40,616 nt of DNA, from the NCBI GenBank assembly GCA_017886545.1, contig JAGHJS010000073.1, positions 1 to 40,616 on the forward strand, written 5' to 3'. The DNA is from Clostridia bacterium. GTDB lineage: Bacteria; Bacillota; Clostridia; Christensenellales; Borkfalkiaceae. This document shows positions 3,229-9,375 of this stretch, in pieces; positions within the stretch are counted from its first letter, which is position 1; the number at the start of each line of letters is the position of its first letter. The notes under the pieces were generated by a model, which worked only from the letters and a program-made list of their open reading frames with translations, ran no database searches and had not been told where the DNA came from. A program made the translations under genes and the position numbers.

Positions 3229-3414
3229 TTATACGGCAAGGGAGGCAAAGCGAAAAAGCGCCTTTTGCCATGCTCCGCGCGGATGTCCGTTACAAAAACG
3301 CGCTGAAAATGTTATCGCGTTTTTTAATAAATATCGGCGCGTACGGCGCAAAAAATTTATGCCTGCGCCCGAAAAAACAAACGATAAATAATGTTTGATT
3401 ATCATATTTTGCAT
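3229..3414 (-). CDS. Doubtful small ORF with strong Shine-Dalgarno
   Basis: A 61-codon frame starts MQNMIIKHYLSF and follows AAGGAGGG placed 5 nt before its ATG. I do not recognise the product. Its C-terminal half is rich in basic residues, as expected for random translation. A second minus-strand start, GGGAGG before an ATG at 3567, opens a 20-codon peptide ending at 3505. Both lie downstream of the toxin/immunity pair and may be cut-off remains of phage genes. Confidence 0.2.
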   Translation of the reverse strand: MQNMIIKHYLSFVFSGAGINFLRRTRRYLLKNAITFSARFCNGHPRGAWQKALFRFASLAV

Positions 3415-3436
3415 ACACTCCCTCCTTATTTCTGTA

Positions 3437-3473
3437 AGCTCCGCCGCTATATTGAAGCGGCGGGGCTTTTTTA
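3437..3473 (+). terminator. Intrinsic terminator after yyaC
   Basis: An 11-bp stem (AGCTCCGCCGC with GCGGCGGGGCT, one G-U pair) is followed by six T on the plus strand. No gene lies between yyaC and this hairpin. Confidence 0.8.
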
Positions 3474-3590
3474 CTGCAATGCGAATAGACGCAGTATTCC
3501 TTATTTATTTCGGTGATATCTGCTGCGCTTCTTTTTGTCCGCTGACTGTCTGCTTGCTTTGCCACATAATCGCCTCCCTGTAATTTCACA

Positions 3591-3643: not shown

Positions 3644-3856
3644 TTATTTTTTCGGCAAAGGCTCGCCCCAAATATTCAAACCTTTGGATACAAGCGCTTT
3701 TGCCTGATTATAGGTAACGGGGTTTGTTTCGTTCGGCTCATCTTCTTGCCCCGTATAGTCATCGTACTCAAATTCCCAATCACAATAAGGGCAATCATCA
3801 AAAGTACTTCCTTCAAACTCTGTTCCACAAATCGGACATTTTATTTTAAACTTCAT
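3644..3856 (-). CDS. Small CPCC-type zinc-ribbon protein, candidate immunity protein
   Basis: The 70-residue protein has two cysteine knuckles, CPICG (residues 8-12) and CPYCDWEFE (about residues 22-30). An acidic stretch and an N-x-V-TYNQAKALVSKGLNIWG tail follow. This layout resembles the cysteine-rich CPCC domain (CPxCG, then CPxCxWEDD, then a short helix ending in an aromatic-Gly). That domain has been proposed as an immunity protein in polymorphic toxin systems. Its ATG overlaps the end of the upstream toxin-like gene by 11 bp, so the two are translationally coupled. The gene is AT-richer than the chromosomal genes around it, which suggests transfer. The immunity role is inferred from family and position. 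Confidence 0.7.
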   Translation of the reverse strand: MKFKIKCPICGTEFEGSTFDDCPYCDWEFEYDDYTGQEDEPNETNPVTYNQAKALVSKGLNIWGEPLPKK

Positions 3857-4277
3857 AAGCTTTATCCTGTCTTTTTATATCTTCAAATTTTTTCTTGGAA
3901 CATTTAGTTAACGTATGAACAACACCTTCGCTGCTTGCGCAAAACCAACCTTTGGTTTCATCATACCTATAAAATTTCTTCCATTTTTCGCTGTAATACA
4001 GCTTCCCCTTGTCACTATTGAAGAACTCGACCGCCGCCTTTTCATACTCCTTTGTGTTTTTGAACCCCATCTCTCTGGCGTGCCGCTGATGATGCTTTGT
4101 TTCCAGACGGTTAAATTCTGTTGCAGGTGCCGGGACTTTCTGCGGCGGAGCATCTTTCTCCGGTTCATCCGAATAGATGCTTACAGCTTTACGAAGCTTT
4201 TCCCCTTCGCCGGCTCCCGCTCCCTTATCCGTAAATTTCCCGTCGCTTTCGCGCGGGTGCTCGTCTTCCCGAAACAT
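3846..4277 (-). CDS. Orphan phage-head-type toxin-like protein (barnase/RelE-like domain suspected)
   Basis: The 143-residue product starts MFREDEHPRESDGKFTDKG. This acidic DEHPRxxDGKFT linker is typical of the C-terminal part of phage portal/MuF head proteins, just before their toxin domain. The rest (about residues 55-143) is a compact basic domain with HHQRHAREMGF, YYSEKWKKFYRYDE and a final KKKFEDIKRQDK. It recalls the phage-encoded barnase/EndoU/ColicinE5/RelE-like nuclease domains, but I cannot confirm the fold. The phage head part is missing, so this is a free-standing toxin cassette. It has its own consensus promoter, and a hairpin covers its ribosome-binding site. The downstream CPCC gene is the candidate immunity gene. 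Confidence 0.6.
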   Translation of the reverse strand: MFREDEHPRESDGKFTDKGAGAGEGEKLRKAVSIYSDEPEKDAPPQKVPAPATEFNRLETKHHQRHAREMGFKNTKEYEKAAVEFFNSDKGKLYYSEKWKKFYRYDETKGWFCASSEGVVHTLTKCSKKKFEDIKRQDKAYEV

Positions 4278-4340: not shown

Positions 4341-4723
4341 CAAAAAAGTAAAACAAAAGCACCGCATATACGGTGCTTTTGTTTTGTCTTTGGGCGCCTG
4401 TCTCAAAGAGGAACCATCATTCTTTTGCAGCTTCGGCGACTTTCTGCTGTCAAAGACAATGTTTATACAAAGTATGGGAAGCCCGCATCCCTTCCATTAT
4501 TTAGCAGCTGAGCGGTAAATTTCTGCTGTCATACTTTATATATCGTCTTCAACGGAAAATCGGTGCGAGTCTCTTGACCGATTTTTATGCATAAACAGTT
4601 TCCCTTATGCAACCGTTGCTCTTGAAAAACTGATAGGGAGGACGCGCATTTCCCTCCATCGCGCCGAAAAAACCTTCGGTGCGGCAGGCGAGCGCGGCTT
4701 TCTGCCATTCGTATCAGTTTTCT
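4341..4723 (-). ncRNA. Candidate ornate structured RNA, about 380 nt
   Basis: No protein can be read here, but the minus strand has a promoter (4730-4757), a terminator (4345-4384) and dense perfect pairing between them. Stems, in plus coordinates: 4626-4635 with 4712-4721 (10 bp), enclosing 4637-4641/4653-4657, 4664-4668/4675-4679 and 4683-4687/4702-4706. Next, 4550-4555 with 4613-4618 (6 bp) encloses 4556-4564/4577-4585 (9 bp) and 4588-4594/4605-4611 (7 bp). Then 4469-4476 with 4530-4537 (8 bp) encloses 4477-4481/4491-4495 and 4503-4507/4523-4527. Last, 4399-4403 pairs with 4454-4458. A hairpin of the type GACAGCAGAAA...GCTGC occurs twice, 79 nt apart, with a third diverged copy near 4683-4706. 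RNase P, tmRNA and SRP RNA signatures are absent. Confidence 0.7.
4345..4384. terminator. Strong palindromic terminator
   Basis: A 14-bp perfect stem (4351-4364 with 4371-4384, arms ending in GCACCG/CGGTGC) has a 6-nt loop. It is flanked by A/T runs on both sides, so it can act in both directions. It ends the structured RNA on the minus strand and lies just upstream of the toxin promoter. Confidence 0.85.
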
Positions 4724-4729
4724 GCTTTT

Positions 4730-4757
4730 ATTATGCTCCAAAACCCGAAAATGTCAA
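4730..4757 (-). promoter_or_regulatory. Promoter of the structured RNA
   Basis: TTGACA (4757-4752) and CATAAT (4735-4730) are separated by 16 bp on the minus strand. The expected start is near 4723, at the foot of the 10-bp closing stem. Confidence 0.7.
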
Positions 4758-8266: not shown

Positions 8267-8970
8267 TTCTTTTTCTCCTTCGGCACGCCGAGCGGGTCGC
8301 TCCGCTCCTTTCCGCGCCCGCGCGGGTACGCAGCGGGCGTGCGTTTCACCTTGTCCGCCACGACCAGCGTCCGTTCGTCTTCCTCCCCGCGCAAAAACAG
8401 CTTTTCGGCAAGGCGCAGCCTGAGCCCGAGCAAATCGAAAGCGCCCTTCGCTTCGGCGATCTCCTCCTCCGCGCGCCCCTTGTACGCCACGAACGCGCCG
8501 CCTTCTTTTACAAACGGCGCGCAGTACTCCGCCAGCGTCGCCAGCCGCGCCACCGCGCGCGCCGTGCATATGCCGAACCGTTCGCGGAACGCAGGGTCCC
8601 GCCCCGCGTCCTCCGCACGCAGCGGATGCACCTGTGCGTGCAGCCCGAGTTTATCCACAACTTCACACAAAAATCCGCACTTTTTATGCGAACTTTCAAA
8701 CAGATCGAACTGCAGGTCCTCCCGCACGATGAGCAAGGGCAATGAGGGGAACCCCGCTCCCGACCCAACTTCCGCGCACCGCGCACCATACGGAAAGTAC
8801 GTTTCGCCCGTCAGGCTGTCGAAAAAATGCTTTTTATAGCATTCCTCCCTGTCCGTGATGCGGGTCAGGTTGAACTTTTCATTATAAAACAGGAGCAGGT
8901 CGTAAAACAATCCGAATTTTTCACCCGTTTTTCCGCTTGTAAGCAGCTTTTCCGCTTCGTTTTGTTCCAT
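8260..8970 (-). CDS. rsmG: 16S rRNA (guanine527-N7)-methyltransferase RsmG
   Basis: The 236-residue SAM-dependent enzyme methylates G527 of 16S rRNA. Visible signatures are YNEKFNLTRITD, the motif I region AEVGSGAGFPSLPLLI, and TARAVARLATLAEYC followed by KGRAEEEI. The length is normal. The preferred start is the ATG at 8970 (MEQNEAEKLL). A TATAAT box ends only 6 bp upstream, so the mRNA would have almost no leader. The longer in-frame start at 9069 would read through the DnaA-box region and is not favoured. It is often next to the dnaA-dnaN or jag-yidC clusters, as here. The 3' end carries a basic, low-complexity tail. Confidence 0.93.
   Translation of the reverse strand: MEQNEAEKLLTSGKTGEKFGLFYDLLLFYNEKFNLTRITDREECYKKHFFDSLTGETYFPYGARCAEVGSGAGFPSLPLLIVREDLQFDLFESSHKKCGFLCEVVDKLGLHAQVHPLRAEDAGRDPAFRERFGICTARAVARLATLAEYCAPFVKEGGAFVAYKGRAEEEIAEAKGAFDLLGLRLRLAEKLFLRGEEDERTLVVADKVKRTPAAYPRGRGKERSDPLGVPKEKKKC
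8651..8659 (+). promoter_or_regulatory. DnaA box inside rsmG
   Basis: TTATCCACA is a perfect consensus match. It encodes part of VVDKL on the other strand, so it may be coincidental. Confidence 0.35.
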
Positions 8971-8976
8971 ATCGCC

Positions 8977-8985
8977 ATTATACCA
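8977..8985 (-). promoter_or_regulatory. Extended -10 promoter of rsmG (leaderless)
   Basis: On the minus strand TGGTATAAT (TG plus a perfect -10) is followed after 6 bp by the rsmG ATG. No good -35 is visible. The transcription start would fall on or next to the A of ATG. Confidence 0.55.
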
Positions 8986-8990
8986 TATTT

Positions 8991-9375
8991 TTCCGCGCGC
9001 CGCTACTTTTTCACACCTCTCTCCCCGAATGTTCCTTATTGTGGAAAAGTTCTGTTCTTTTGTAGGCAACTTCCCCGCCCGTTCCGTTTTTCCGCCTTTT
9101 TTCTCCCTCTTTTTCCGTCGGGCGTGTTTTTCTCCCTACAATTCCACTTTGCTTCAACACCGCGCCGCACACACCTTTCCACAGGAACGCCCCTCTTTTT
9201 TTCTTCTGATTTCCGCTCTTTTTTCTTGCTTTTTGCCCCCTTTTCCACTATAATAATAGCATGCGCGGAAGGGGCGGAAAGGGCTGTTCACATTTCCACA
9301 GCGCTTATTATTATATTTACCGTTTATAAGAATAAATCTTTTATTTTTATCCCGCGGCAGGAAGGAGGAACCTCT
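8991..9375. other. Candidate replication origin (oriC) between rsmG and dnaN
   Basis: This 385-bp gap lies where gene direction diverges. DnaA-box-like sites are TGTGGAAAA (9040-9048), CTTTCCACA (9175-9183), TTTTCCACT (9241-9249) and ATTTCCACA (9292-9300). A nearly pure A/T stretch follows at about 9303-9350 and could be the unwinding element. The plus strand between 9050 and 9245 is unusually pyrimidine-rich. None of the boxes is a perfect TTATCCACA, so the call is an inference. Confidence 0.5.
9226..9254 (+). promoter_or_regulatory. Probable dnaN promoter
   Basis: TTGCTT and a perfect TATAAT (9249-9254) are spaced 17 bp. The DnaA-box-like TTTTCCACT covers the end of the spacer and the first base of the -10, so DnaA binding could control it. 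Confidence 0.5.

Follow-up and report, generated by a model that had tools for sequence, protein, structure and literature searches.

The skipping-rope motif (RF02924), reportedly catalogued in a 2017 paper, is classed by Rfam as a small RNA (sRNA) gene and nothing more. The legend to figure 3 of the Rfam 14 paper has it drawn with a pseudoknot (PMC7779021), and a passage of a phage-host paper includes it among phage noncoding RNAs (PMC8501573). RNAs proposed to act directly on protein toxins are found in the type III toxin-antitoxin systems (ToxIN, CptIN, TenpIN), where an RNase gene lies beside a structured, loop-paired and sometimes repeated RNA; classically, the antitoxin RNA is upstream of the toxin, one promoter serves both and a terminator stands between them (PMC5086642, section 4). 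Likewise, the abiF-motif RNA of C. difficile (RCd22, RF03085), which lies upstream of the phage toxin gene AbiF, is reported to neutralise that toxin by direct binding (PMC12373285). Here we describe a minus-strand RNA unit at 4757-4342 of a 40,616-nucleotide stretch of a Clostridia bacterium of the order Christensenellales (JAGHJS010000073.1, assembly GCA_017886545.1), the whole of which we call the window. The unit is a tandem array of four domains of about 70-90 nt, not one RNA. Its family appears to be a distant sister of skipping-rope RNA, and both family and sister are closely linked to genes, carried by phages or plasmids, that encode BECR-fold RNase domains or, in four cases, LPD13. 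We think it probable that these RNAs are type III-like antitoxins that would neutralise BECR RNases, stacked in the window as an immunity array.

A tandem array of small RNA domains

A preliminary description of this stretch had proposed a structured minus-strand unit with its own promoter and terminator, and the present analysis agrees. The promoter (4730..4757, minus strand) is near consensus, with TTGACA at 4757-4752, a 16-nt spacer and CATAAT at 4735-4730 (11 of 12 consensus matches), and the predicted start of transcription is near 4723; the intrinsic terminator (4342..4385, minus strand) has 16 pairs (4385-4350) and then a T-rich tail. The minimum free energy (MFE) of the unit is -130.1 kcal/mol, whereas shuffled sequences average -108.5; this gives a z-score of -4.1, and none of 100 shuffles comes as low. 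A scan for promoter-like sites (3 vs 1.8 in shuffles) and terminator-like sites (5 vs 3.6) is weak evidence taken by itself, and open reading frames (ORFs) of 60-70 amino acids cross the RNA region on both strands. As the same description had expected, the unit matches no Rfam model at curated thresholds, those for tRNA, tmRNA, RNase P, GOLLD, ROOL, OLE and raiA included; up to E = 10 nothing is convincing, the rows below the cut-offs lying mostly over the terminator, and ARAGORN finds no tRNA or tmRNA in the window.

The idea of a single large ornate RNA of the GOLLD/ROOL/OLE kind did not survive comparison with relatives. BLAST of the unit gave matches in 7 of 40 genomes of the genus, its own included; because these cover differing parts of the query, and in one genome have changed order, they are best explained by a modular array. 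Each piece is a domain closed by its own long stem (P1), behind one shared promoter. The stem-closed domains that had been described are thus real and separate, but there are four rather than "at least three": B (4628..4719), C (4550..4618), D (4465..4541) and E (4386..4457), all on the minus strand. Beside the window's B-C-D-E, relatives hold one to three domains in other combinations, namely A-B-C (L002, L003), A-F-B (L004), E alone (L005), F-E-B (L009) and A-D-E (L012); in L006 there is a degenerate B. The promoters and terminators of these arrays are recognised by pattern or by eye: promoter-like sequence lies ahead of the arrays in L002, L004, L005, L009 and L012, and by eye the transcripts end at the P1 of the last domain or at an extra hairpin, followed by T's.

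A junction with mutually paired loops

Alignments of the module types made with MAFFT misplaced the helices and were rejected; the family was therefore built upward through structure models, from a covariance model seeded with two copies of D alone. This D-only model finds E in four loci (window included) and F in two, at 18-32 bits, with A, B and C at chance level (8-13 bits, amid false hits). A later model, R2, brings A, B and C up to 12-19 bits, a range that overlaps with false hits from 14.8 bits down. Across the models, copies of B reach 12-24 bits and copies of C in L002 and L003 12.5-17.5 bits, and domain C is the least certain member of the family.

Stem covariation among homologues, which the preliminary description had named as a check of the fold, is present. 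Both sides change in 12 of 18 pairs of an 8-row alignment, in which 95.0% of cells pair (71.8% when shuffled) and only 37-47% when the partner is slid by one to three columns; a 19-row alignment, whose B rows have a misplaced P2, brings these figures to 14 of 18 pairs and 96.3% of cells. The shared architecture is an 8-bp P1, 2 nt, P2, an optional extra hairpin P2b, the sequence AUG, and P3 set flush on the returning strand of P1. In the window, P2 and P3 are GGCAG/CUGCC and GGAGG/CCUCC in B, which also has P2b; D has a P1 extended to 12 bp, P2 AGCAG/CUGCU and P3 GGAAG/CUUCC; E has P1 GUCUUUG/CAAAGAC and P2 GCAG/CUGC; and C has P1, P2 and P3. A hairpin GACAGCAGAAA...GCTGC that had been counted two to three times occurs as two exact copies (D, E), the third being a variant in B (GGCAGAAA...CTGCC). 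As a correction to the earlier account of the inner stems, single-sequence MFE folds of B, D and E lack these helices, which come from comparing relatives.

The loops of P2 and P3 (L2 and L3) are complementary in every domain type except C: CGCGC/GCGCG in B, CCGC/GCGG in D, CGCC/GGCG in E, CCGCAC/GUGCGG and CCGCGC/GCGCGG in two copies of F, and CUGCU/AGCAG, CUGCA/UGCAG and CUACC/GGUAG in three of A. Tested module by module, F alone falls below 0.05; in E the longest match is AAAG/CTTT, equal in length to CGCC/GGCG, and in one D copy (L012) the pairing is down to 3 pairs. When ten loop pairs from A, B, D, E and F are pooled, own loops average -8.65 kcal/mol and swapped loops -6.18 (0 of 10000 permutations), although the loops were set by hand and that of E trimmed to its 3' part, which tilts the test toward the expected pairing. 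The pool omits domain C (two copies), in which three stems and no L2-L3 pairing were found, as well as the L012 copies, L277, the new domain of L240 and near-repeat loops. We conclude that the helices covary and that L2 and L3 pair in a covarying way, C excepted. Each domain would then be a junction of P1, P2 and P3, which in all but C is locked by L2-L3 pairing.

Within the genus, R2 finds arrays only where BLAST had found them; its weak hits in G032 and G016, which resemble coding sequence, were discarded. A pattern for F in IMG/VR gives two phage contigs, each with a single F domain (R2 47.7 and 44.6 bits), and patterns for E/D and for B found nothing in the viral contigs. Model R3, made of 11 rows (D, E, F and one A, no skipping-rope sequence), matches 15 of 396 genomes of the order, its own included, at E up to 0.001, and by eye the stronger matches consist of one domain or a pair and have promoter-like sequences. 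From a class sample it recovers the window's own genome alone (1 of 391), with filters that lose weak matches. A loose P2-motif pattern over genome contigs marked at least 118 loci: of 80 scored with R2, together with the two viral loci, only the viral two are strong and the next best has 19.8 bits; the other 38, scored with R3, gave a single match, of 26.9 bits, which falls within an open stretch of 1262 codons on an Erwinia contig and was taken as false. Since R3 scores to about 27 bits can thus arise by chance in loci selected for the P2 motif, the order hits at 26-28 bits (L223-L226) are uncertain.

Apparent kinship with skipping-rope RNA

In an Rfam scan of 18 loci the single hit besides a tRNA is a skipping-rope RNA, on a phage contig (L073), where it adjoins a gene with sub-threshold PBECR3/MuF_C matches and lies about 150 nt from an F domain. 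The skipping-rope consensus shares with the family an 8-bp P1, 2 nt, a P2 of roughly 5 bp whose loop opens with GAAA/AAA, an extra arm that may be absent, '..AUG' leading into a 5-bp P3 that sits flush on P1, and L2-L3 pairing, the last present in A, B, D, E and F by the swap test and absent from C. The loops of skipping-rope RNA likewise covary (20 pairs, -5.77 vs -3.64 kcal/mol; 0 of 10000 permutations). R3 matches 14 of 24 skipping-rope places at their exact coordinates and strand, three at E < 0.01 (41.9, 23.8 and 23.7 bits) and the others at 10-17 bits; its remaining hits in that scan are one F domain and two elsewhere. In a further set, near-duplicates included, it matches 10 of 16 places. 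One sequence (G065:C1:18790-18869, L254) bridges the two, with 41.9 bits for R3 and 28.1 for RF02924, below the latter's cut-off of 36.7. Up to E = 10 the RF02924 model itself reports nothing in the window or in the arrays, and because it does not recognise the window domains at all, we call the family a distant sister and not a member. The preliminary description's new RNA class holds in that Rfam has no match, but it has a catalogued relative. The two also differ in that the window's family forms tandem arrays of unlike domains.

Linkage to phage and plasmid BECR-fold RNase genes

Skipping-rope RNA is found at E up to 1e-4 in 20 of 196 genomes of another class sample (22 loci), and in 17 of the 22 loci a PBECR2 or PBECR3 gene, in one case (L266) below Pfam cut-offs, ends 17-92 nt upstream on the same strand. 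With two skipping-rope-linked proteins as queries against GenBank phages and plasmids (6, 1 and 10 records, the best place of each examined), the RNA follows the gene at a distance of 6-136 nt and in the same orientation in 16 of 17 records, the seventeenth, Javan254, stopping at the gene end. Distinct loci are those of Streptococcus suis phages, a faecal phage and plasmids of Macrococcus, Brevibacillus, Sporosarcina, Priestia, Treponema and Enterococcus/S. thermophilus. Of the linked proteins, 23 were compared and have one invariant proline and a nearly invariant histidine and lysine; a profile of the skipping-rope-linked proteins found ribosomal L23 chains only (E 0.06-0.14), taken as chance, and PADLOC found nothing. 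In the passages available, the literature on PBECR and on Barnase-EndoU-ColicinE5 domains mentions no RNA partner, and no title among the matches listed joins skipping-rope and PBECR.

The sister family has its own partners. The PBECR1 Pfam model matches 6 of 396 genomes of the order, where the genes are located among phage head genes, and an R3 match lies just downstream in five of the six loci, the RNA running opposite to the toxin gene (convergent). The sixth (L233) has no R3 hit; a promoter and a C-like domain are seen there by eye, and an extra stem-closed stretch (1801-1950) straight after the promoter fits none of types A-F. LPD13, a phage-associated domain, occurs in one of the 396 genomes (L239), with a promoter and domains B (17.7 bits) and A (35.5 bits) convergent with the gene, and in three further cases on phage contigs. 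In G064 (L072) an F domain overlaps the final bases of the LPD13 gene, and in G065 (L212) a hybrid A/B domain begins 4 nt behind one such gene. The second (L240) is followed by a promoter and by a stretch that a stem closes and that contains a GCAGAAA...CUGC hairpin; R3 scores this stretch at chance level (12.8 bits); at 2655-2753 on the minus strand, at the 3' end of the gene, it has an extra arm and a possible GCGC/GCGC loop pairing, and probably represents another type of domain. Domains of the D, E, F-like and C-like kinds thus stand beside PBECR1, and F, A and B beside LPD13. The phage-related setting suspected at the outset is borne out. Pattern searches in the viral contigs gave no relative for the PBECR1 peptide and its own source only for LPD13.

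Two minor observations concern the same loci. A conserved protein (MREEMSFE...VCLTWEESGM) at L216 1617-2312 and L227 1638-2333 is convergent with a D or E domain and is a possible new partner; and at L217 1421-1500 a D domain faces what by eye is a decayed PBECR1 C-terminus, the RNA being kept while the toxin decays.

Possible function of the arrays

It is informative to set these loci against the known RNA antidotes. As in type III systems, a predicted RNase gene (PBECR1, PBECR2 or PBECR3 by profile, the window gene by predicted fold) lies beside a structured, loop-paired RNA, which is four unlike repeats in the window and a single domain in many relatives. The putative toxins here are of the BECR fold, the RNA has a separate promoter, and the order differs: the RNA is convergent with PBECR1 or LPD13 in the order, downstream of PBECR2/3 in skipping-rope loci, and upstream on the same strand in the window, where the gene has a promoter-like site of its own (4335-4307). 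Because the classical RNA precedes its toxin on one promoter, these pairs would be a type III variant. The closest precedent for the mechanism is the abiF-motif RNA, likewise beside a phage toxin gene, though its RNA motif and protein family are different and the RNA is upstream of the toxin. If the antitoxin interpretation holds, the RNA would be made from its own promoter in the lysogen or plasmid carrier, independently of late genes, and each folded domain would bind a BECR RNase directly and block it, as type III pairs do. Several domains in a row might neutralise several RNases or increase the dose, like the immunity-gene arrays of polymorphic toxins, and solitary arrays lacking a toxin would be orphan immunity.

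Several observations weigh against this interpretation. Neutralisation, binding and toxicity are steps that we infer, and gene order is unlike that of classical type III systems and varies between loci. PBECR2/3 is absent from 5 of the 22 skipping-rope loci, two with other Phage_Mu_F proteins (L265, L279) and three with nothing recognised (L269, L272, L280); the GenBank queries, moreover, themselves derive from loci with skipping-rope, and the 17 records, with many near-duplicates among them, amount to about eight distinct loci. The 12 order loci with at least 35 bits outside the window's own genome comprise five with intact PBECR1, one with a remnant (by eye) and six with no recognised toxin within about 1.5 kb, and the A-B-C arrays of G027 and G008 have no toxin-like gene among the nearby listed ORFs. 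Domain type does not correspond one-to-one with partner type, and the nuclease status of LPD13 is not established. Finally, a candidate protein immunity gene follows the RNase-like gene of the window, where an RNA antitoxin would then not be required.

Might the RNAs instead be ordinary trans-acting sRNAs that pair with host or phage mRNAs, linked to RNases as shared mobile-element cargo? Their own promoter and terminator, the arrays or single domains with no recognised toxin nearby, and the filing of skipping-rope under sRNA would suit this. However, the linkage at 6-136 nt recurs in 16 of 17 records across phages and plasmids of Bacilli, a Treponema plasmid and a faecal phage, and a conserved folded junction whose variable loops pair with each other would leave little free seed, so that we consider this account unlikely. 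An RNA that serves an injected nuclease as cofactor, guide or packaged cargo is a rather remote prospect: PBECR1 genes do lie among phage head genes, and published passages hold that PBECR domains may be packaged and injected (PMC5512222), but RNA and toxin gene lie in opposite orientations in the order, plasmids also carry skipping-rope pairs, and some arrays have no recognised toxin. The convergence of RNA and gene at the PBECR1 and LPD13 loci, with overlap of the gene's last few bases in L072 and L240 and a 4-nt gap in L212, recalls a type I-like antisense RNA transcribed over the 3' end of the toxin mRNA. Yet skipping-rope RNA lies downstream on the same strand and the window RNA upstream on the same strand, which leaves no shared antisense pairing; orientation is not conserved, antisense (type I) control was rejected on that ground, and a single shared antisense mechanism is therefore very improbable. 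Least credible is a large RNA with a joint tertiary structure, as in GOLLD, ROOL or OLE, for which the z-score of the entire unit could be cited; no Rfam model matches, and the domains occur singly (L213, L215, L072) and in other orders.

A more speculative form of the antitoxin interpretation is prompted by the connectivity of skipping-rope RNA (stem, 2 nt, arm, 1 nt, arm, 4 nt, 5-bp arm, flush return, with first and last arms touching), which the tRNA cloverleaf shares, combined with the colicin D-like fold predicted for the window gene. The domains could be tRNA-shaped antidotes that occupy phage-delivered BECR RNases of the colicin D kind, arrays such as the window's being libraries of RNA immunity with one domain per rival phage RNase. 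The loops of skipping-rope and its sister differ from a cloverleaf in pairing by Watson-Crick kissing, and D, E and F have no middle arm; we regard the proposal as tentative and somewhat doubtful. With these results, an orphan RNA class and its new sister gain a close genetic partner in phage and plasmid BECR RNases, the function of that class becomes directly testable, and an unrecognised kind of RNA-RNase toxin-antitoxin system, with arrays of unlike RNA antidotes, is suggested.

Genes beside the array in the window

The RNase-like gene (3846..4277, minus strand), which matches the portal C-terminus of PHROG 15528 at 2.7e-5, joins a phage linker (DEHPRESDGKFTDK) to a C-terminal domain whose structure model predicts a BECR fold like that of CdiA and colicin D; Foldseek rows ranked under these two were disregarded. 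Two stretches of L195 (4890-5129 and 5099-5287) have by eye the same linker start with a different C-terminal part and frame, a kind of variation that polymorphic toxin genes show; they have no Pfam match and look decayed. A gene for a small CPCC/zinc-ribbon protein overlaps the RNase-like gene at its end (3644..3856, minus strand; Cys_rich_CPCC at 5.8e-5, just under the cut-off), a possible protein immunity. Two relatives of it stand in tandem (8811-9293) beside the F-E-B array in L192, with no recognised toxin there. Further on, 3290-3589 looks by eye like a degenerate counterpart of a phage gene for a DNA-binding or small-terminase-like protein (L193 2565-3005 offers a comparison), which makes it probable that a fragment of a decayed prophage lies in the window, with host genes on either side.
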